36,605 nucleotides of DNA, from positions 1 to 36,605 of the forward strand of contig NZ_FLUY01000704.1 in assembly GCF_900092655.1 (NCBI RefSeq). Reading direction: 5' to 3'. Both the position numbers and the translations under genes were made by a program. The notes below the pieces were generated by a model. The model was not told where the DNA came from and did no database searches. It was given only the letters and a program-made list of their open reading frames with translations. The stretch comes from Candidatus Thiosymbion oneisti. GTDB lineage: Bacteria; Pseudomonadota; Gammaproteobacteria; Chromatiales; Chromatiaceae. Positions 4,055-36,605 of this stretch are shown here, one piece after another (position 1 is the stretch's first letter; every line of letters starts with the position of its first letter).

Positions 4055-5143
4055 TCACGCCGCCTGTTTGGCTACAAACACCGCTCGCGCAGCCTGGATG
4101 CCACGCAGATACTTGGCCTGACGCCGGGCACAGAGATTCACGAGTGATGCCGGTGCGCCGACCGCCGTTCCAAACGCCTTAAGAAGACGTTCGGAATAGC
4201 CGGTAAACTGCTCCCCATTGATGCCCAAGCGCGTGAAGATCTTGGGTTCTCGTGCTTCGATGTATCCAGACTTATCCTCACGTAACGCCTGACCCGTCCA
4301 ATCGACCAGCTCCAGGTAATCATCGAAGGCAAACGGCACCGCCCAGGGGGTCTGTGCGGCGGCATCGAAGGGCATCAGCGGGGCCCGGGGTAAGACCTGC
4401 GTCTCGGTTTCCGGCCGTAACCGCTCCCCATCGAGCGTTACCTCAGGCGCTGTGACGGTTGCGATCTCCTGTGAGCCGGTTTCGGATGCAACCTCCTCGG
4501 GTAACTCAACGACACGCTCCTGAATCGAGGTGTAGTCCGAGGCCTCCGGCGTCTCGGCAAGCCTCGCCCGCACCGGATTCAGATCCACATAGGCCATCGC
4601 CGCCAGCAACGCCTTCTCATCGAGCAACGCCTGGCTCTTGAAGCGTCCTTCCCAAAATCGCCCCTTCACCCCATCTTCTGCATTGGCCCGGCGGGCAATA
4701 TGCTCGTTGAGGGTGCGCATAAACCAGGACAAATCATGTAATCGCCCCCGGTAGACCTCGGCAAGTTCTTCAACCTTGGCAATTTCCGCTCGGCTCATCG
4801 ACCCCCGTGACTCCGAGAGATAACGTGTCACCAACAAGGGCCCGGTGAAGAGCGCCGTCCAGCGCCTCAACACCTCCTCTATCGACCACCCCAAGGCTCG
4901 TTCCCGATCGATGCGTACCACAAGGTGATAGTGATTACTCATCACCGCATAGGCGGCCACGTCGATGGCAAGCAGGGCAGCAAGCTGCTGCATGCGTTCA
5001 ACGATCCAGCCGCGACGGTGTTCGAAATTCAGGCCTGAGAACGGGTCCTCACCACACAAGAAGGCACGGCGTACACAGCGGCATACGCAGTGATACCAAG
5101 GGGTGTCCTCAAGGGAGACAAGAACGGAGCAGGGGGCAGTCAT
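4055..5143 (-). CDS. IS200-like (Y1_Tnp/RAYT-type) transposase with C-terminal extension
   Basis: A 362-residue protein. The N-terminal HUH single-strand transposase domain shows the start motif TPWYHCVCRCVRRAFL (about residues 14-29), the metal-binding HYH at 71-73 in AYAVMSNHYHLVV, and the AYVDLNPVRA motif with candidate nucleophile Tyr185. Residues beyond about 200 form an extension of unknown role with a lineage-specific tail. This longer class is chromosomal, usually single-copy and lacks the hairpin ends of true IS200 elements. RAYT relatives cut and move REP palindromes, and three REP copies lie within 5 kb. The ATG at 5143 gives the family-typical MTAP start. All key residues look intact. 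Confidence 0.85.
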   Translation of the reverse strand: MTAPCSVLVSLEDTPWYHCVCRCVRRAFLCGEDPFSGLNFEHRRGWIVERMQQLAALLAIDVAAYAVMSNHYHLVVRIDRERALGWSIEEVLRRWTALFTGPLLVTRYLSESRGSMSRAEIAKVEELAEVYRGRLHDLSWFMRTLNEHIARRANAEDGVKGRFWEGRFKSQALLDEKALLAAMAYVDLNPVRARLAETPEASDYTSIQERVVELPEEVASETGSQEIATVTAPEVTLDGERLRPETETQVLPRAPLMPFDAAAQTPWAVPFAFDDYLELVDWTGQALREDKSGYIEAREPKIFTRLGINGEQFTGYSERLLKAFGTAVGAPASLVNLCARRQAKYLRGIQAARAVFVAKQAA

Positions 5144-13593: not shown

Positions 13594-13971
13594 CCTGCGG
13601 CCTTCCTACGAGACGACCCCTCTGTCAGATCCCAGGTGATCACGTCTTAATTGCAGCTACAGCCTACACCGTAACAAATTTGAGGTTGTCCGAGAGCAGT
13701 TTGAGGTCATCCATGATACGGGTAATCCTGGTACGCCTTCAGTACCCTGTCAAGCTCCACCCCGGTCCGGAAGGTAAAGCAGAACAATCCAGTCCTGCGG
13801 CACAACGCGGCCAACCTGTAGCGCGCCGAAGGATTGATTGGGTGACAGGTGTTCATCTACGCAAATCCCGACAGAAACCATGTGCGACGGGTAGCGCTGG
13901 GTTTATACTGCGCCGATTCGAGCTTCCCCTCATCCGAAACAATTTCCAAGCCTGTATCGAGGAGGACCGGG
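13594..13971. other. divergent intergenic region between the PKD protein and gpmI
   Basis: These 378 bases separate two divergent genes and should hold both promoters. On the plus strand TATACT at 13904-13909 is a plausible -10 for gpmI, but no good -35 lies at the right distance. GGAGG at 13961-13965 is a good ribosome binding site for the ATG at 13972. Between 13680 and 13850 the minus strand can encode short protein-like pieces (such as ELDRVLKAYQDYPYHG), but nothing I can assign. Confidence 0.4.
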
Positions 13972-15621
13972 ATGGAAGAACTCAGGAAAAACGGGGCCTT
14001 CGATGGACCGGAAGGACCGCTGGTGCTGGTGATCATGGATGGGGTCGGGATCGGCAAGTACCCGGAAAGCGATTTCGTCAAGATCGCACATACCCCCAAT
14101 CTGGACTGGCTGCGCACGCATGCGGTCTACACCCAGGTCAAGGCCCATGGGACGGCGGTCGGCCTGCCGGACGACACCGACATGGGAAACTCGGAGGTCG
14201 GTCACAATGCGATCGGCTGCGGTCGTGTCTTCTCGCAAGGGGCGGCACTGGTCGACCAGGCCATCGCCTCCGGCTCCCTATTCGAGGGTGCGGTCTGGAA
14301 GGAGCTGGCGGCGAATGTCAAAGACCACCAATCGACACTGCACTTTATCGGTCTGTTTTCGGACGGCAACGTGCACTCCAACCTCAACCACCTGGAGGCG
14401 ATGTTGCGCCGGGCCAAGGCAGAGGGGGTCCAAAAGGCCCGCATCCACCCTTTGATCGACGGGCGCGATGTGCCCCCGACCTCGGTGCTGGATTATGTCG
14501 AACGCTTCGACAAATTCCTGGAAGGCATCAATGCGGATGGCACCCTGGACTATTGTGTGGCGTCGGGCGGTGGGCGCATGCACATCACCATGGACCGCTA
14601 TAACGCCGACTGGAGCATGGTCGAGCGCGGCTGGAATACCCACGTCAGGGGCCAGGGCCGCTACTTCGCCACCATGCGCGAGGCGGTGGAGACTTTCCGC
14701 AAGGAAAAGCCGGGCATCCTCGACCAGGATCTGCCGGCCTTCGTCATCGCGCACGACGGCGCCCCGGTGGGGCCGATCCTGGCGGGAGACAGCGTCATCT
14801 TCTTCAACTTCCGCGGCGACCGCTCCCTGGAGATCACCAAGGCCTTCGAGGCCGAGGCGCTGAGCGAGTTCGACCGCGGTCCCAAACCGGATGTGCGGTA
14901 CGCCGGTATGATGCAATATGATGGCGACCTTTGCGTACCGGAGAAGTATCTGGTATCGCCACCGGCGATCGATCGTACCATGAGCGAATACCTCTCCAAC
15001 GCAGGGGTCAAGCAATTCGCCATCTCCGAGACCCAAAAATACGGCCACGTCACCTACTTCTTCAACGGTAACAACTCGGGCAAATTCGCCACCGAAACCT
15101 GGCGGGAGATCCCCTCGGACATCTGCCCGTTCGAACAGGCACCGCGGATGAAGGCGACCGAGATCACCGATGCCGTGGTGACGGCGATCAAAAGCGGCGA
15201 GTACCGATTCATCCGCCTGAACTATCCGAACGGTGACATGGTCGGCCACACAGGTGTAACCGATGCCGTGAAGACAGCTATCGAGGCCGTGGACGAGGGC
15301 GTCGGCAGGATCATGGAGGCGGTAAAAAATGCCAAAGGCATCGCGGTCTTCTCGGCGGACCACGGCAACTCCGACGATATGTACGAGGCGGACAAAAAGA
15401 CCGGCCAGCTGAAGCGGGACGCCGCCGGCAAGTTTCTGCCCAAGACGGCACACTCCCTCAACCTAGTGCCAGTGATCGTCTACGACCCGACCAATGGATC
15501 CCGGGCGCGCCTAGCGCAGGTCGCGGATCCCGGCATCGCCAACCTGGCGGCTACCTGCATGACACTCCTCGGCTTCCAGCCCCCAGCGGATTACACGCCG
15601 AGTCTGGTGGAAGTCGGATAA
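13972..15621 (+). CDS. gpmI: 2,3-bisphosphoglycerate-independent phosphoglycerate mutase
   Basis: A 549-residue cytoplasmic enzyme that interconverts 3- and 2-phosphoglycerate in glycolysis with two Mn ions. It belongs to the alkaline phosphatase superfamily. The metal ligand Asp23 lies in VLVIMDGVGIG, and the nucleophile Ser74 in DTDMGNSEVGHNAIG. The phosphotransferase insert carries LIDGRDVPPTS, GRMHITMDRYNADWSMVERGW and FFNFRGDRSLEI. The C-terminal metal site has YPNGDMVGHTG and FSADHGNSDDM. All key motifs are intact. The start at 13972 follows GGAGG by six bases; the frame is open further upstream but without protein-like sequence. The length is slightly above the usual 510-550. It stands alone and divergent from the PKD cluster. 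No clear rho-independent terminator follows. Confidence 0.97.
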   Translation: MEELRKNGAFDGPEGPLVLVIMDGVGIGKYPESDFVKIAHTPNLDWLRTHAVYTQVKAHGTAVGLPDDTDMGNSEVGHNAIGCGRVFSQGAALVDQAIASGSLFEGAVWKELAANVKDHQSTLHFIGLFSDGNVHSNLNHLEAMLRRAKAEGVQKARIHPLIDGRDVPPTSVLDYVERFDKFLEGINADGTLDYCVASGGGRMHITMDRYNADWSMVERGWNTHVRGQGRYFATMREAVETFRKEKPGILDQDLPAFVIAHDGAPVGPILAGDSVIFFNFRGDRSLEITKAFEAEALSEFDRGPKPDVRYAGMMQYDGDLCVPEKYLVSPPAIDRTMSEYLSNAGVKQFAISETQKYGHVTYFFNGNNSGKFATETWREIPSDICPFEQAPRMKATEITDAVVTAIKSGEYRFIRLNYPNGDMVGHTGVTDAVKTAIEAVDEGVGRIMEAVKNAKGIAVFSADHGNSDDMYEADKKTGQLKRDAAGKFLPKTAHSLNLVPVIVYDPTNGSRARLAQVADPGIANLAATCMTLLGFQPPADYTPSLVEVG

Positions 15622-15696: not shown

Positions 15697-15796
15697 GTAG
15701 GTTGGGCAAAGCCTGCCAGGGACGGCGGCGTGCCCAACAGGATGTTCAAAGAGCGCAAAAAGCCCGCGTAGGTTGGGGTGAGGAATGAACCCCAAC
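15697..15796. repeat. two REP-like hairpins downstream of gpmI
   Basis: The first hairpin pairs GTTGGGC (15701-15707) with GCCCAAC (15732-15738). The second pairs GTTGGGGT (15772-15779) with ACCCCAAC (15789-15796). Each is preceded by GTAG or GCGTAG, as in the other GTAGG-type repeats of this window. The preceding stretch 15664-15690 is a degenerate direct repeat of CGCAAAGG units. They could also serve as a transcription barrier after gpmI. Confidence 0.6.
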
Positions 15797-15874
15797 GCTA
15801 TAGTTGAGATAGAGCTTATTGGTATGCGTTACCGGCATGTATCGGTCGCAGGAGAGACTTGAGTCCTTAGATAT

Positions 15875-15980
15875 TTGACATTCGGCTGCAAGCAACCCAA
15901 TGCCGCGGTCCGGCTCCTCAGCAACTTTCAAGCTCAGTGCCACGCAGCATTGGGCGCCTGAGCCCAAGCGTTAGCTCCAA
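15875..15980 (+). other. attC-like recombination site, upstream
   Basis: This segment folds like an integron attC site. CCCAATGC (15896-15903) pairs with GCATTGGG (15948-15955), and GGCT (15884-15887) pairs with AGCC (15961-15964). The outer TTGACATTC pairs imperfectly with AAGCGTTAG. The right end, CCCAAGCGTTAGCT, matches the usual 3' end of such sites with the cut in G/TTAG (15970). The left core is degenerate. The pattern shares its CAACCCAA left stem sequence with the second site at 16604-16690. Confidence 0.55.
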
Positions 15981-16000
15981 CAAAACCGAGGTGTTCTCAA

Positions 16001-16609
16001 ATGCCATTTAGTCAGTTTAAAAATATTACCGAGGTTCAAAAAGAATACAAAATAAAGTACGAGGAAGGTATTTTTATATCGGCGCTGGATATAGTCGTTC
16101 CTCAAGCTTTTATAGAAGAGTTTAGGTTTAATAAAGAGAATATTGATATATTTTCTTCTGAAGCTTCTCGAAGCGAACTGATAATATCTCCGTTGCTAAG
16201 AGAGATATATAAAAGACACAGTAAAAATTATTCGTTTTGGATACAAAAACCAATATCATTTAACGAAGTATTATCTGGAACACCTGACTATATTTTTTCA
16301 AAAAGATCAGCACTCGGGAAGACAGTCCTTGAAACCCCAATCGTTATTGTCGTTAAAGCAAAAAAGAACGACTTTGAACAAGGCTGGGGACAATGCCTGG
16401 CTGAATTAGTAGCATCACAAAAGATCAACAACAATGAAACAAATTCGGTATATGGAGTGGTTACTGATGGAAATTTATGGCAATTTGGTCGATTGCAAGA
16501 GCATCTTTTTACAAAAAACGAAAAAAACTACACCATCGATAATATGCAAGAATTATTTGGAGCACTAGAACATCTTGCAACCCTAGTCGAACAAGAGAAA
16601 TGGAACTAA
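16001..16609 (+). CDS. PD-(D/E)XK nuclease-like cassette gene, catalytic Glu replaced by Lys
   Basis: A 202-residue protein, strongly AT-rich compared with its neighbours. The layout fits a restriction-endonuclease-like fold: SEL at 59-61, GTPDYIFS with Asp96, then IVIVVKAKKNDFEQGWGQCLAEL (116-135), followed by YGVVTDGNLWQFGRL. In relatives that I remember, the equivalent motif reads VVEAKK..FE.GWGQC, with the E-x-K pair catalytic. Here Lys119 (AAA at 16355-16357) stands where Glu is expected, one base change from GAA, so the protein may be inactive or a binder. GAGGTG precedes the ATG at good spacing. The gene starts 31 bases after one attC-like site and its stop codon lies inside the next, as in integron cassettes. 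It has no recognisable partner gene. Confidence 0.65.
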   Translation: MPFSQFKNITEVQKEYKIKYEEGIFISALDIVVPQAFIEEFRFNKENIDIFSSEASRSELIISPLLREIYKRHSKNYSFWIQKPISFNEVLSGTPDYIFSKRSALGKTVLETPIVIVVKAKKNDFEQGWGQCLAELVASQKINNNETNSVYGVVTDGNLWQFGRLQEHLFTKNEKNYTIDNMQELFGALEHLATLVEQEKWN

Positions 16610-16690
16610 CATGCGGCTTAACCGGGCAACCCAAAGCGGTGCACCTTTCGGCTTACCGCTTTGGGCTGCCGGTTAGCCTTGACGTTATAT
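16604..16690 (+). other. attC-like recombination site, downstream
   Basis: A long imperfect inverted repeat closes the cassette. GGCTTAACCGGGCAACCC through AAAGCGGT (16615-16640) pairs with ACCGCTTTGGGCTGCCGG through TTAGCC (16655-16678), with single unpaired bases as in attC sites. The outer TAAC (16607-16610) pairs with GTTA (16684-16687). The TAA stop of the nuclease-like gene lies in the left core, typical for cassette genes. A plain terminator is the alternative, but no U-tract follows. Confidence 0.6.
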
Positions 16691-16700
16691 TTCAAAGGCA

Positions 16701-17096
16701 ATGAACAAAATACGTCTTCCGGTGGTGTTGATCCTCCTTTTCATCGGCTGCGTCAGCACGGCGACAAAGGCAGCAGAGGGGACACAAGTCAAGCATATTG
16801 TCTTGTGCTGGCTCAAGGAATCCGGCAATCCTGCCCATCGGCACAAGATTATCGAGACATCGCGTTCATTCCGCAAGATCCCACGTGTCCTAAAGGTAAG
16901 TGCCGGCGAGGTGATTCCGAGTGATAGAGAAATTGTCGATGACAGCTTTGATGTCGCTATCATGCTCACTTTCGCCAACACGGATGATATGAACGCCTAT
17001 CTGGAGCACCCCTTGCACAAGGATGCTGTCCAAAAGGTCCTTCTGCCTCTGGTCAGGAAGATCGTGGTGTATGACTATACGGAGGTAGTGTTCTAA
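16701..17096 (+). CDS. exported Dabb (stress-responsive alpha/beta barrel) domain protein
   Basis: A 131-residue protein. The N-terminal hydrophobic segment MNKIRLPVVLILLFIGC ends in a possible lipobox (FIGC, imperfect), otherwise cut near KAAEG. The mature part is a single Dabb dimeric ferredoxin-like domain: VKHIVLCWLKESGNP, SFRKIPRVLKVSAGEVIPS, DVAIMLTFANTDDMNAYLEHPLHKDAV and a closing IVVYDYTEVVF. These are the standard Dabb landmarks. Dabb proteins bind or convert small aromatic or polyketide-like molecules; the substrate here is unknown. It begins 11 bases after the attC-like site, so it could be a neighbouring cassette or the chromosomal flank. No attC-like fold follows it, and GC is closer to the genome. 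Confidence 0.8.
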   Translation: MNKIRLPVVLILLFIGCVSTATKAAEGTQVKHIVLCWLKESGNPAHRHKIIETSRSFRKIPRVLKVSAGEVIPSDREIVDDSFDVAIMLTFANTDDMNAYLEHPLHKDAVQKVLLPLVRKIVVYDYTEVVF

Positions 17097-17162
17097 CTCC
17101 GTTGCTACCGAATCGGAGAACCTTCTCTCTGGCTTCTACACTCCAGCGTAGGAGCAAATCCA

Positions 17163-17212
17163 GACGCTCCAGCGTCATGAAAAACCTTGGCCGCTGGAGC
17201 GTGGGAACGAGC
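17163..17212. repeat. GCTCCAGCG-type palindromic repeat
   Basis: GACGCTCCAGCGTC (17163-17176) is close to a palindrome and is followed by CGCTGGAGCGTGGGAACGAG (17192-17211). The same words recur several times at 36465-36605, also with GCTCGTTCCCACGCTCCAGC, so this is a dispersed repeat family. Confidence 0.65.
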
Positions 17213-21615: not shown

Positions 21616-21672
21616 TGGGTGGTGGCTAATTCTTAAATGATGGCATAGTCAACTGGCTGGCAAGAGATCCGT

Positions 21673-21700
21673 ATTATAGCGGTGCAGGAAGAGCTTTAAA
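21673..21700 (-). promoter_or_regulatory. candidate outward promoter in the IS remnant
   Basis: On the minus strand TTTAAA (21700-21695) lies 16 bases before a perfect TATAAT (21678-21673), pointing at the HAD-sppA pair. The predicted start of transcription is near 21666, about 50 bases before the HAD start codon. It could replace the native promoter lost at the IS junction. Confidence 0.5.
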
Positions 21701-21706
21701 CAGACC

Positions 21707-22003
21707 TCATGCATAATGATGCATTTGGAGAAAGAGAGCGTTTTTTCCTTTTAACCAAGCACGCAATGTTTGGCGACAGATCCCATGACTCCTTTCGATC
21801 CCACGCATGCTTGATCGTTCTTGATAAGCTTTTATAATGAGGTCTTTCGCTTCCTCTGTATAACATACTTGGGGTTCAAGCACACCATAGGCCCCACAGG
21901 TTTTACAATGATATTGCTGGTTGCCGCATGCATTGATGCCATTTTTTCTCAGTTCGTTGCTGTGACATTTGCGGCATGTGTGCATTTTTGTTCCAATAAT
22001 CAT
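21707..22003 (-). pseudogene. InsA-like IS1 transposase subunit, orphan
   Basis: A 98-residue frame with the InsA architecture: a zinc ribbon (C-R-K-C at about 9-12 and C-K-T-C at about 33-36) and then a helix-turn-helix (AKDLIIKAYQERSSMRGIERSHGICRQTLRAWLKG). The InsA part of IS1 binds the ends and needs fusion by frameshift to InsB, which holds the DDE catalytic site. InsB is absent, and the last residues (NALFLQMHHYA) look like read-through into the deletion junction. Alone, InsA acts as an inhibitor and repressor in IS1. A TATAAT (22050-22045) near the right end could drive it. Confidence 0.75.
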
Positions 22004-22061
22004 AACTGAAAACTCCTTGGTTAAATTTACAAATGGATCACTATATTATATCATTTAATAA

Positions 22062-22634
22062 TTAGCCACCACCGTCGGCGGTCTGGCGTTCCCGACAATA
22101 GACCAAGGGACGGATGACACGGATGTCTCCCTTATCGTTCAGATACCGCGCCTTCATGGTCCGCAGTTGCCCACTGTGGAAGAAGGATAGCAGCAGACTC
22201 TCGGCCAGATCGTCCAGGTGCTGAGCCAGGGCCAGCACCCCGTAGCCCTCGCGCCGGCAGGTGCCGTACATGATGCCCCGCTTCATGCGGGCACAGTAGG
22301 CACAGAAGGAACCCCCGTCCATCCGTTCCCTGGTCTGCTCCAGGATGGGATGTTGCTCATAGAACCAGGTCACGCCCAGGCGGTCGTAGTAGGCTGTGAG
22401 CGGGCCGGGGTCGAATCCGGGTATCTGCAGATCGACTGTGACCACCCCGAGCGCAAAACGCACCGGGGCATAGGTCCGCAGGTGGCGCAAAACAGCGAGC
22501 AGCGACAGTGAGTCCTTGCCGCCGGAGACGCCGAGCAGGATGCGGTCGCCGTCGCGGATCATGGCGTACTCGGCAATGGCCCTCCCCACCCGGCTCAGGA
22601 GTGACCTGGGCGGTTGGATGCCGGGCCGGCTCAT
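22062..22634 (-). pseudogene. ttcA-like PP-loop tRNA thiolase, truncated by the IS1 end
   Basis: A 190-residue frame with the PP-loop ATP-pyrophosphatase motif SGGKDS (about 37-42) and a first Cys pair in GGSFCAYCARMKRGIMY, followed by LALAQHLDDLAESLLLSFFHSGQ and IRPLVYCRERQTAD. This is the TtcA family, which 2-thiolates cytidine 32 of tRNA with an iron-sulfur cluster; the exact subgroup may be TtcA-like rather than TtcA. The family goes on for another 60-100 residues containing the last cluster Cys. Here codons GGT GGT GGC TAA from the IS terminus end the protein directly after ADxGGG. No C-terminal remainder lies beyond the IS remnant. It is probably nonfunctional. Confidence 0.85.
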
Positions 22635-25402: not shown

Positions 25403-28400
25403 TCACTCCTTGACGGTGTCTCCCCATTCGACTTTTCGCCCAATAGTGGTCTGGATGGCGTCGATCTGGGTGCCCTTGAAGAGCTCGAACAACCGCTCCG
25501 CCTCGAAGCGGGGTTTCGGGTCGAGGTTCGAGTCGGCGAGGTCATCGAGGCCGGGGAAAGTCATAGTGTAATCGGTCCGTCCGGGGGTACGGCAGAGCAT
25601 GATGTGTTGCTTGAAGTCGCGCCAGAATTCGGAGCCGTCGATGTTTTTTTCCACCTGCTCACGGAATGCCGAATTCCCGTATTCCAAGGCGCGGTCCTCC
25701 ATCAGCCGCAGTTGCACCGACAGCCGGAAATGCTCCGAGGCGGCGGCGATGGAAATCCAATCGGCGGCCAGCATCAGCTCGGTGCGGTCGACCATGAAAT
25801 CCTCGAAGAAGGCGCCTTGGATGGCGAAGATCTCCTGCAGGCGTTCCTCACTCGGCTCGCCCGAGAGGATGAGGAGCAAGTCGTCCCAGCCGTCGGTCAG
25901 GAAGAGGCAGTCATTGGCATGTAATAACCCACCGATCTGCTCGATCTGCAACCGACGGTCCGGCAAATCTTTATGTCCATTGTAGGAATCATTCCTTTTG
26001 TCCCGCGCTCGCAGCAGGCGGCAGAGGGCATCGACACGGGCGTAGCGTTGGGTCAGGGTAACCGAGAGGATCGCCAGTACAGGTATCCGTTCGTCGTCCG
26101 GAAAGGGATCAGTGCGATCCAACCGCACAGGGACTGCTTGCTCGCGACGCACGAAGAAGGCCGGAAACTCCTCGTCCTCCCATTTTGGTTCCGGCGGAGC
26201 ACAGTCGGGCTGGGGGAACTGGGGAAGTGTGCAGCGGTACATGGGACGGGTTTTGATCCAGGTCACTAGGTCGTAACGTCCTAAGACCCCCTCGTAATAG
26301 CGCTTTCCGTGCTGCCCGGATGTCTCTTCCTCCTGCGGTGGTCGGCAGACGGTACGTTCCCCAGCCCAGTGGTAATCTTTTTTCGCGAAGCGGTCCAGCC
26401 AATAGGTCAGGCGATCCGGATCTTCTCCACCCGGCTTTTTTTCCTTGGTGGGATAGCTGCCGGCGATTGCAATGCGGCCAATGAGATAATAATCGGGCAC
26501 ATGGAGGTCATTGCCAGGCCGGAACGCTTCGATCAGACGCCGTATCCGCTTGTCCGCATCCCCTTTATCCGCCAGACGAGTACCCTCCAGGTACCCCATG
26601 AGGGGGTAGACAGGGTTGCCGGGCTTTAGCTTACAATCCCTGAGAATCTCGATCAGCCGGTCCAGCTTTCTGCGGAGCAATTTGTCCAGGGTGCGCAGGC
26701 GCTCTTCATATCGTTGGGAAGAGGAGTCGGGATTAATTGTGCGCTCGGAATAGAATTTCAGTCCACGGTGTCTAAACCAAGCATAGAGATCGCGCCAGGT
26801 GAGTGCCGTGTATCGCTCAGCAATTCCCGGCGCTTCTTTGTTGAACTCAATGCGCTTTTCTTCTTTGCGCATGGCGCTGGGAGGAAATCTACCGAACAGG
26901 TCGTCTTCGAGTTCTCCGATGTACTCTTTCAGCCAATCCTGATCACGCGGCTTTTCATCCTGCTGGTAGCCAAGCCATTTTTGCAGCTTGTCTTGTAGTG
27001 CGGAATCCAACTCCGACCAGCGCGGCTTGTCCTCGAATAGATACTCCAGTTGGTGTACAACGATGAGCAAGTAGTGAAAGGCAGACTGACTCTGATCGTA
27101 ATGGAGCTCGAGGGCGAGCTGGTAGAACTCCCGACCCAGGGCGGCGTGGCACTGTAGATTCGCGATCCAGTTGCGGCCCTGTTCGCGTGGTCCGCCTTGA
27201 TCATCGAAAAAATCGATCGCTCGGGCCAGCATACACTGCCAGGCGATGTCATAGATGTGCCGGAAGATAGTCGGTTTGGTTCCTTCGGTTTCGTTGCCAT
27301 CGAAGTAATGGTCAACGAACCACTGCTTGGTCTCTTTTTCTTCCATTCCTTCGCAAGGGTATCCTGGTTGGCGCTTCTGCTCGACCAAGCGATCATAAAG
27401 ATGCCCTTGCACGGATTTAGGCAGGCGCCGCGAGAAGCGGGGGAAACACCAAGGTGCCCGGCTTACCCCTTGATCCTGGCTGTTGGATTTCTCGTCGGAT
27501 GCCTCGTCACTTATGTCATCCTCGGAGCGCATCTGGCGCCAATGGCGGAAATCCGCGGCCGCATCGGAATGTCGGGCCAATTCACACAGACGTCGACCCA
27601 GGGAACGCCAGTAGTGCAGTTGGGAGCGGTTGGGTCCATGTAGGCGATCCAGGAAATCGAGCATGGCCTCCGTCAAGTCGAGCACGCCTTTCTCTAATAG
27701 GGTATCCAAGGGGGGAGACGGATCCAGGTGGTGGATTGCATTGAGCCAGGTTGCGGTGACCCGTAGCCGCAGATACCAATCACGCTCCCGGTCCAGGAAA
27801 CCCCCGTGGCGCTCCAGATGGTAGGTGAGCTCCAGGTCGTAACATCCATCCGGGCGGTCGAAGAAGATCTCCAGGCCGGTGCCGGCGCCGGTAATCTCCT
27901 CGAACAGCGCTAATAAATAGCCGTGACCCTCCACGGTGGCGGCCAGCAGATCGCAGGCGAGCTCGCGGATCAGAGAATGGCGAAAATGCGAGGACAGGCG
28001 TCTTTTATCCTCGTGCTTGTCGAAGCTGCGCAGGCAGTGGTCGAACAGCCGCAGTAGGCGCCCGAAGGGGTCCTGACAGGCGATCAGCATGTCCTCGTCG
28101 CCATTTCTGTAGCGGCGATTCACGGCCTCATGGGCCACTTCATGGGCGAGCACACTCTGCAAATCCGGCCGTTCCGGCATCCAGTAGGAGGAGTTGATGA
28201 ATGAGGTGTGCCGTGCGTCCTCGTGCTCGGCCGAGGTTTGGTGGAGATGGGTAAAGGAGCGGGAGGTAAAATCGTGATTCCAACGGTGCATCATCGGTCC
28301 CCGGCTGGCAGGGAGAGGGGCGGCTATACGCTGGGAGTCCAGCAGCATGGTGATCGACCGTCCCATGTCACGGCAGCGGTCCGTCAGGAAGCCGGTGTAG

Positions 28401-29140
28401 ATCCCTTGCTCCCGGCGTCTGGTCAGGCTGGGCCTGGGGTGGTCCTGAAACCCCATATCCAGATCGCGCTCGAACTGTGCCTGCAGATCCCGCAGGCGCT
28501 GAACATAGTCGTAGATCTTGCGTGTCACCCCGGCGCGCAGGACCATGAACCGGGCCAGACGTTGGGTCCCGCCCTGCTCCTTCGGATAGGGATCGGAATC
28601 AATGACCCGAAAGGCCCATAGGGCCCACCAGCAGAGGGTCAGGCGATCCGCCACCAGATCGGCCTTGATGTCTTGCAGGGTCCTCAGGATCAGATAGTGG
28701 CGCTTTTGATCCAGACTCCAGTGGCCTTGGTTCCAAAATTCCCGGATCTTGGCTTGGAGCTTTCGCGTTGGGTCGTGCTTATCCTCTGATGCTTCATCTG
28801 ATGCTTCATCGTCGGCGACAAGGCCCGGTATGGGATAAGGCACGACCCATTTCGAGGCGAGTTCCTTGGCGGAGAAATCCGGTCGGCACAACTCCTGATA
28901 CCAATCAACGCCTTCGGTCTCTTCTTTCGACCTGCCCCAGATGTATTTCTCTTCCCGGCGCAGGAAACGGTACAGAACGGGCGCGTGCAGGTGATGAATC
29001 AGATTGACCTGGGTGTGACGGTACTCGACCAACAGGGTATCAATACGTTCGAAGGTATCGACCCAGGCCACAAGGCCCAGTATCTGGCGCGGATCGGTCT
29101 TTTCTGGAATGTTGCCCGTCTCTTCGGCTTTCGTCATCAT
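25403..29140 (-). CDS. large HExxH zinc metalloprotease-like protein of unknown family
   Basis: A ~1,245-residue protein with no signal peptide or TM helix, so probably cytoplasmic. The motif SVLAHEVAHEAVNRRY gives HEVAH at about 333-337, after 330 residues that are mostly helical. A candidate third ligand lies about 56 residues later in RELACDLLAATVEGHG, a spacing and context like M48-type gluzincins (E..AD). The middle is helical and unrecognised. The last ~250 residues carry strands typical of paired ferredoxin-like lobes (GRYDLVTWI, PVLAILSVTLTQRYA, DCLFLTDGWDDLLLILSG, then EIFAIQGAFFEDFMVDRTELML). Two SDEASDE acidic spots, at about 113 and in the middle, look like linkers. ATG codons at 29140 and 29137 both follow AGGAG. 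It is the third gene of a set with the five-TM and coiled-coil genes upstream. I do not recognise the full-length family. Confidence 0.7.
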   Translation of the reverse strand: MMTKAEETGNIPEKTDPRQILGLVAWVDTFERIDTLLVEYRHTQVNLIHHLHAPVLYRFLRREEKYIWGRSKEETEGVDWYQELCRPDFSAKELASKWVVPYPIPGLVADDEASDEASEDKHDPTRKLQAKIREFWNQGHWSLDQKRHYLILRTLQDIKADLVADRLTLCWWALWAFRVIDSDPYPKEQGGTQRLARFMVLRAGVTRKIYDYVQRLRDLQAQFERDLDMGFQDHPRPSLTRRREQGIYTGFLTDRCRDMGRSITMLLDSQRIAAPLPASRGPMMHRWNHDFTSRSFTHLHQTSAEHEDARHTSFINSSYWMPERPDLQSVLAHEVAHEAVNRRYRNGDEDMLIACQDPFGRLLRLFDHCLRSFDKHEDKRRLSSHFRHSLIRELACDLLAATVEGHGYLLALFEEITGAGTGLEIFFDRPDGCYDLELTYHLERHGGFLDRERDWYLRLRVTATWLNAIHHLDPSPPLDTLLEKGVLDLTEAMLDFLDRLHGPNRSQLHYWRSLGRRLCELARHSDAAADFRHWRQMRSEDDISDEASDEKSNSQDQGVSRAPWCFPRFSRRLPKSVQGHLYDRLVEQKRQPGYPCEGMEEKETKQWFVDHYFDGNETEGTKPTIFRHIYDIAWQCMLARAIDFFDDQGGPREQGRNWIANLQCHAALGREFYQLALELHYDQSQSAFHYLLIVVHQLEYLFEDKPRWSELDSALQDKLQKWLGYQQDEKPRDQDWLKEYIGELEDDLFGRFPPSAMRKEEKRIEFNKEAPGIAERYTALTWRDLYAWFRHRGLKFYSERTINPDSSSQRYEERLRTLDKLLRRKLDRLIEILRDCKLKPGNPVYPLMGYLEGTRLADKGDADKRIRRLIEAFRPGNDLHVPDYYLIGRIAIAGSYPTKEKKPGGEDPDRLTYWLDRFAKKDYHWAGERTVCRPPQEEETSGQHGKRYYEGVLGRYDLVTWIKTRPMYRCTLPQFPQPDCAPPEPKWEDEEFPAFFVRREQAVPVRLDRTDPFPDDERIPVLAILSVTLTQRYARVDALCRLLRARDKRNDSYNGHKDLPDRRLQIEQIGGLLHANDCLFLTDGWDDLLLILSGEPSEERLQEIFAIQGAFFEDFMVDRTELMLAADWISIAAASEHFRLSVQLRLMEDRALEYGNSAFREQVEKNIDGSEFWRDFKQHIMLCRTPGRTDYTMTFPGLDDLADSNLDPKPRFEAERLFELFKGTQIDAIQTTIGRKVEWGDTVKE

Positions 29141-29212
29141 TCCGCTCCTAGGCGATCGGCTTCGAAATTCGGCTCGCGACTGAGAGGCTGCATAAGAGCT
29201 GACCCATTGATT

Positions 29213-29238
29213 GTCATTTCGAGCGAGGCGAGAAATCT
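29213..29238 (+). repeat. TCATTTCGAGC-type dispersed repeat
   Basis: GTCATTTCGAGCGAGGCGAG followed by AAATCT is a near-palindromic word found between genes in many bacterial genomes (from memory). It lies in the 210-bp gap between the five-TM gene and the metalloprotease gene, which therefore may carry an inserted repeat or its own promoter. Confidence 0.5.
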
Positions 29239-29350
29239 TACGCCCAAACAACCTTCCGTGGCTGAGTTTCAGGTCTGGGCGCATGCGGATGCTACGTCCG
29301 TCAAAACTCTGGACGGTGGTAGCAGGTACGCCGCCTAAGACCTTAGCTAG

Positions 29351-36462: not shown

Positions 36463-36605
36463 TCGCGCTCGTTCCCACGCTCCAGCATGGGAACGCCATC
36501 TTGTCCGCTCCAGCGGACTCAGCTCCTCTAGGCGTTGGCTGTTAGCCTACCGAGGCGCTTAATCGACGCTGGAGCGTCGGGATCTGCTCCCACGCTGGAG
36601 CGTGG
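36463..36605. repeat. cluster of GCTCCAGCG / GTTCCCACGCTCC repeats at the window end
   Basis: GCTCGTTCCCACGCTCCAGC, CGCTCCAGCGGACTC, GACGCTGGAGCGTCGG and CTCCCACGCTGGAGCGTGG follow each other to the last base. They share words with the repeat at 17163-17212. The cluster may continue beyond the window. Just before it, 36411-36430 carries AGAGGCTGTCTAAAAATTAA, which resembles an insertion sequence terminus, but no partner is seen. Confidence 0.6.

Follow-up and report, generated by a model that had tools for sequence, protein, structure and literature searches.

A gene cassette flanked by two attC sites and lacking a nearby integrase in the genome of Candidatus Thiosymbion oneisti

The sequence analysed here, referred to as the window, is a stretch of 36,605 bases which constitutes the entire contig NZ_FLUY01000704.1 (C1009) of the genome of Candidatus Thiosymbion oneisti, a nematode symbiont (G000; 4.33 Mb in 1891 contigs). 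The genus Candidatus Thiosymbion is placed in the Chromatiaceae. Among the genomes used for comparison, the sister genome G003 belongs to the Candidatus Thiosymbion ectosymbiont of Catanema sp. and G002 to the ectosymbiont of Robbea hypermnestra; all Candidatus Thiosymbion genomes compared are drafts or metagenome assemblies. The features described in this paragraph are encoded on the forward strand. The upstream chromosomal gene, located at positions 13849–15621, encodes a 2,3-bisphosphoglycerate-independent phosphoglycerate mutase (iPGM; Pfam PF01676/PF06415) and is also found beside a G003 locus that is free of the cassette described below. An intergenic left flank (15770–15877) is common to the window and to this cassette-free G003 locus, with 91% identity to G003:C1:1361091-1361194. 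It is followed by a decayed attC site (site 1, 15874–15976), a gene coding for a protein of 202 amino acids (16001–16609), and a second attC site (site 2, 16604–16690). Downstream lies a gene encoding a Dabb-domain protein (16701–17096; PF07876, E 4.6e-20), which starts 11 nt after the R′ box of site 2 and whose product has a signal-like start. No close relative of the Dabb gene was found in 91 related genomes of the genus and the family. The possibility that this gene represents a second cassette was rejected, as no attC was found behind it.

Several further elements were noticed in the window. The 362-aa protein encoded at 4055–5143 on the reverse strand resembles, by eye, a REP-associated transposase (RAYT) and has no Pfam match at E 0.001; at the same threshold, no Pfam match was obtained for the 1293-aa protein encoded at 25403–29284, also on the reverse strand. 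At 21618–22073, inverted repeats of 24 nt (96%) enclose a 98-aa ORF, assigned by eye to a zinc-ribbon/helix-turn-helix family. This segment resembles a short IS-derived element and ends within a ttcA-like gene at 22062–22634 (names given by eye). A dispersed repeat beginning with GCTGGAGCGT is present at 17126–17201; an inverted copy lies at 36467–36603, at the contig end, and at least 20 more copies occur in G002.

The second of the two attC sites is the better preserved. It consists of an R″ box AACTAAC (16604–16610), a long, imperfectly paired hairpin containing an extrahelical base, and an R′ box GTTATAT (16684–16690). Site 1 has the same orientation and comprises an R″ core TGAC (15876–15879), a hairpin, and an R′ box GTTAGCT (15970–15976) with the G^TT crossover at 15970/15971. 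The outer bases of its R″ box are missing, and the box reads ATTTGAC instead of GCCTAAC. In single-stranded DNA folding, the bottom strand gave a better fold than the top strand at both sites, as in attC. For site 2, none of 200 dinucleotide shuffles gave a bottom-strand fold as good as that of the site (z = −6.5). The fold of site 1 is modest, with three of 200 shuffles as good (z = −2.6).

The window was searched with a covariance model of attC built from 27 attC sites; their sources were plasmid-borne class 1 integrons and, in other genera of the class, integrase loci. No sequence from Candidatus Thiosymbion was included in the model, because circularity had to be avoided, and the known pairing of the R and L boxes was imposed. 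The set of 27 sites gives good support to this pairing: 87% of the cells are paired, and the covariation score is 0.362 compared to 0.128 after shuffling. The search of the whole window with filters off returned site 2 as the sole significant match, at 27.7 bits and E=3.8e-5, the E-values of covariance models being rough. The R″/R′ and L″/L′ boxes and the extrahelical base were aligned in this match, and the next best match in the window reached 8.5 bits. Site 2 is an attC recombination site. Site 1 was aligned in the correct register and scored 5.9 bits; the low score is due to the loss of the outer bases of its R″ box. In the consensus fold the outer core pairs TGAC/GTTA of site 1 are kept, one of them as a G–T wobble. 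A search with the strict consensus R″/R′ pattern matched neither of the window sites, since each departs from the consensus. The scan of the window against Rfam gave no match; Rfam is not known to hold an attC family.

Site 1 is identified as attC by homology and not by its model score. A search with the 104-nt consensus of related loci detected copies of an attC repeat of the genus in G000 (27 copies), G003 (at least 40) and G002 (10); G001, G029, G055 and G088 gave none. Site 1 shares 95% identity with this repeat over 97 nt (15878–15974), and other copies of the repeat reach up to about 48 bits with the attC covariance model. When 79 distinct copies were lined up, most of them were found to share a further stretch of about 45 nt preceding the R″ box. 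The copies with an intact right end diverge from each other at the R′ box, which is the point of crossover by the integron integrase; other copies among the 79 are cut at many positions. In G003, copies of the repeat are located 1.3–2.2 kb from the start of the intact integrase gene. Many unrelated genes are flanked by this repeat as well. These comparisons assign site 1 to the lineage's own attC repeat, as a copy from which the outer part of R″ has been lost. With all searches pooled and a spacing of 4 kb, the attC sites of G003 number at least 132 and form at least 43 clusters, of which only about eight lie near an integrase gene or an integrase remnant.

The gene located between the two sites has a GC content of 0.34 (16001–16500), compared with 55–60% in the surrounding region. 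Its start codon ATG at 16001 is found 31 nt after the G of GTTAGCT (15970), and GAGGTG is its putative ribosome-binding site. The stop codon TAA (16607–16609) is situated inside the AACTAAC box of site 2. An earlier reading of this DNA, made from the sequence alone and hereafter called the sequence-only reading, had described an AT-rich gene whose flanks both fold as imperfect hairpins and end in a GTTA core, with the start codon about 30 bases past the first site and the stop codon in the left core of the second, and had regarded this as cassette geometry. All of these points were borne out. The same reading had also claimed that the two stems share the word CAACCCAA, and this was upheld in part. 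The word is indeed present (11/12), but the sharing is coincidental, because the consensus of the site 1 repeat is GACCCAA and site 2 of G003 reads CAGCCCAA. As confirmation, the reading had asked for two covariance-model hits in the same orientation, at about 15875–15980 and 16604–16690. The two sites do have the same orientation; site 2 is strongly supported by the model, and site 1 is recognised through homology. One gene, two attC sites in the same orientation, a start codon after R′ and a stop codon in the second R″ together make up an integron gene cassette.

Assignment of the cassette protein to a family was not obvious from Pfam, NCBIfam and PDB sequence searches, which revealed no clear family. 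The PADLOC model PD_DExK (PDLC01472) matches the protein with an E-value of 9.7e-49, and it matches 27 of the 27 aligned family members. The AlphaFold model of the protein has a pLDDT of 93. The restriction endonucleases DrdV and BpuSI were among its Foldseek matches at low TM-scores, as were mitoribosomal proteins. In the alignment of 27 relatives, Asp96 is invariant and Glu119 and Lys121 are near-invariant, which corresponds to the PD-(D/E)XK pattern. The product of the cassette gene is predicted to be a PD-(D/E)XK nuclease-like protein. In the window copy, codon 119 has changed from GAA to AAA, which replaces Glu by Lys; the copy in G003 keeps Glu. With Lys119 in the catalytic position, and provided that the family is catalytic, the protein encoded in the window has probably lost its activity.

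A genome scan based on the close members of the alignment placed the family in many phyla. It is present in several copies per genome, with eight members in G000, 17 in G003 and 34 in G055. An attC beside a family gene was found at only a handful of loci across the phyla. The clearest other case is a Desulfobacteraceae genome, in which an attC is located on each side of the family gene (L253). Within Candidatus Thiosymbion, about a third of the family copies, as counted by eye, adjoin attC. As attC accompanies few of the family loci, the gene is an occasional passenger of integrons and not an integron component.

Comparison with the sister genome allowed the left edge of the insert to be placed. 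The iPGM gene and the intergenic sequence that follows it match G003 up to window base 15877 and then depart, and the homology of the left flank ends exactly at the start of the site 1 unit (15877/15878). The corresponding place in G003 is a near-empty locus (G003:C1:1360.9-1361.2k) from which the cassette is absent. After the left flank, this locus contains a repeat and then a piece of 31 nt which resembles the beginning of the Dabb gene (26/31 nt alike by eye). Because the downstream flank in G003 is rearranged, through the repeat insertion and the Dabb remnant, the pre-insertion site is not readable base for base.

The unit that extends from attC1 to the R′ of attC2 (15878–16687) was found elsewhere in G003, at G003:C9:348943-349714, with 93% identity, and the homology starts and stops at precisely those bases. 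There the unit is part of an array of about nine attC sites on the same strand, and the integrase of the array survives as an IntI N-terminal remnant at 360280. The attC1 of the G003 unit has a deletion of 38 nt. The cassette genes of G000 and G003 are 98.2% identical with a pS of 0.056, whereas the iPGM genes of the two genomes are 86.4% identical with a pS of 0.338. This difference implies that the cassette moved recently, much later than the lineages split, and the movement would have taken place between or within the two lineages. Among the relatives, a 98% copy of the cassette gene was found in G003 only. The sequence-only reading had pointed to related strains as a place to look for the empty site; the near-empty G003 locus answers to it, with a rearranged downstream flank. 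It had also named the presence of the gene in all relatives without these hairpins as evidence against a cassette. The gene is not fixed in this way, and its 98% copy in G003 lies in an attC array.

The search of the window contig with the IntI model gave no match. The statements of the sequence-only reading that no integron integrase is encoded in the window, and that the two sites of like orientation form a cluster of attC sites without an integrase, are in line with this result. In G003, an intact integrase gene is located at C11:532233-533174 (459 bits), and this genome further carries several integrase remnants adjoining attC clusters. No intact integrase gene was found among the 1891 contigs of G000, which yielded only fragments. 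Three fragments on contig C108 correspond to IntI residues 166–253, 291–315 and 1–36, the first two with adjoining attC sites, and one on contig C113 corresponds to residues 1–70 and contains two stops. These data are only suggestive of G000 being without an intact integrase gene, because such a gene could have been missed in an assembly of 1891 contigs. A stretch of about 200 nt is repeated in G000 with 93–95% identity (C108:13988-14198, C113:2674, C729:7024 and C1821:3557), and at C108 and C113 it overlaps or touches the first codons of the integrase fragments. These stretches are possibly copies of the attI/intI promoter region.

We propose that the window contains a two-attC cluster of attC sites lacking integron integrase (CALIN), that is, an integron cassette stranded in the chromosome and placed there by an IntI acting in trans. 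The probability of this reading is estimated at roughly 0.85. An IntI encoded elsewhere in the cell would have recombined the folded bottom strand of the cassette attC, and the cassette would have entered a non-attI place between the iPGM gene and the Dabb gene. The element may then have frozen through the loss of R″ in site 1, the reduction of the integrase to fragments and the replacement of the active-site Glu by Lys. The intact gene would yield a small PD-(D/E)XK nuclease-like protein, translated from its own GAGGTG ribosome-binding site or read from the upstream gene. The right edge of the insert fits a crossover in the R′ box of site 2. The left edge coincides with the R″ side of site 1, where the integrase does not cross over. 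Since truncation occurs at many points among the repeat copies, this edge is read as the result of decay or illegitimate recombination. Cleavage of the top strand by the integrase at R″ was also considered as the cause of the left edge; given the many positions at which the repeat copies are cut, this idea was dropped to unproven.

Instead of a single cassette, a whole integron with attI, integrase and array might have decayed in place between the iPGM and Dabb genes, leaving the attC pair as its last remnant. The integrase remnants that adjoin several attC clusters in G003 are compatible with such a course, as is a 5.5-kb insert in G003, containing attC and the stretch found beside the G000 integrase fragments, at a locus that is short in G000. 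The presence of a decayed attC1 on the left side likewise implies that the locus once contained more than a single bare cassette. However, the window contains no attI-like or integrase piece, and its left flank is continuous between iPGM and attC1 and agrees with the G003 locus that lacks the cassette. We regard the decay of a whole integron at this place as the less likely course.

A far smaller chance is given to the view that the hairpins are transcription terminators or REP-like palindromes flanking an acquired AT-rich gene. REP-like repeats abound in the genome, including the vicinity of the cassette, and site 1 taken alone scores poorly with the attC model, but a T-run follows neither hairpin, site 2 fits the attC model with its R″/R′ boxes and extrahelical base (E 3.8e-5), and site 1 belongs to an attC repeat which adjoins an intact integrase gene; this view is largely refuted. 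Least probable of all, and mostly refuted, is a nuclease gene that is itself mobile, of the IS200/IS605 type or nuclease-driven, with the hairpins as its own ends: its product is nuclease-like and its family is widespread among bacteria and multi-copy, but most family members have no adjoining attC or common hairpin and the identical attC repeat flanks many unrelated genes, which shows that the hairpins go with integrons and not with the gene.

Two lone attC clusters of G003 were compared with the same locus in G000, and both loci are short in G000. At the first one (G003:C1:457-460k versus G000:C95:22044-22155), which lies between a gene recognised by eye as bL17-like and the gene next to it, 1.6 kb of cassette sequence in G003 stand against 0.1 kb in G000. 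The G003 group at this locus comprises two small ORFs with one clear and one decayed attC, and it is absent from G000. The second locus measures 5.5 kb in G003 versus 0.5 kb in G000. For the lone attC locus L288, only repeat matches were obtained in G000. The presence and absence observed at the two loci indicate that cassette groups are gained and lost at ordinary chromosomal positions in the genus. As a tentative extension, to which we assign somewhat less than even odds, an integrase acting in trans might have spread single cassettes and short arrays to dozens of intergenic places, with turnover between sister species. If this is true, insertion outside the integron would rank among the main ways in which the genome of a natural symbiont changes, and would not be a laboratory curiosity. 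Taken alone, the window element adds one to the stranded cassettes already known. Considered with its relatives, it allows the question whether cassettes move out of integrons and settle in the chromosome to be put in a natural system.

The genus attC repeat can be compared with the VCR of Vibrio cholerae, which is the lineage-specific repeat attC of a sedentary chromosomal integron. In both cases one attC is repeated tens of times, with about 90% or more identity, beside the IntI of the lineage. The copies in Candidatus Thiosymbion differ in being scattered over at least 43 clusters and not collected in one large array. The PADLOC entry PD_DExK (PDLC01472) is listed as a CRISPR-associated PD-(D/E)XK nuclease. 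The window differs from it in that no CRISPR locus was noticed there and in that its copy of the protein carries Lys in place of the catalytic Glu.

A CALIN is a cluster of attC sites lacking an integron integrase, for which the IntegronFinder definition requires at least two attC sites (PMC9024848). The window agrees with this in having two attC sites of the same orientation around one gene and no integrase nearby. It differs in being of minimal size and in that one of the sites has decayed below detection by the model, so that a standard program might list a single site or miss both. CALINs that lie apart from the integron have been described, among others at seven loci in Xanthomonas (PMC12444791). 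The same source attributes the integrase-driven insertion of cassettes at attG in E. coli experiments to Loot et al. (2024, Nat Microbiol). Insertion at attG, as outlined there, would place cassettes at many chromosomal positions outside the integron, and to that extent it resembles the insertion proposed for the window. The difference is that it was demonstrated experimentally in E. coli, whereas for the window it is deduced, and that the left junction of the window element is not an R′ crossover. Our literature search found no paper naming Thiosymbion together with integrons. Since both CALINs off the integron and integration at attG are already known, the genus is a new, well-populated instance of an already known kind of element.
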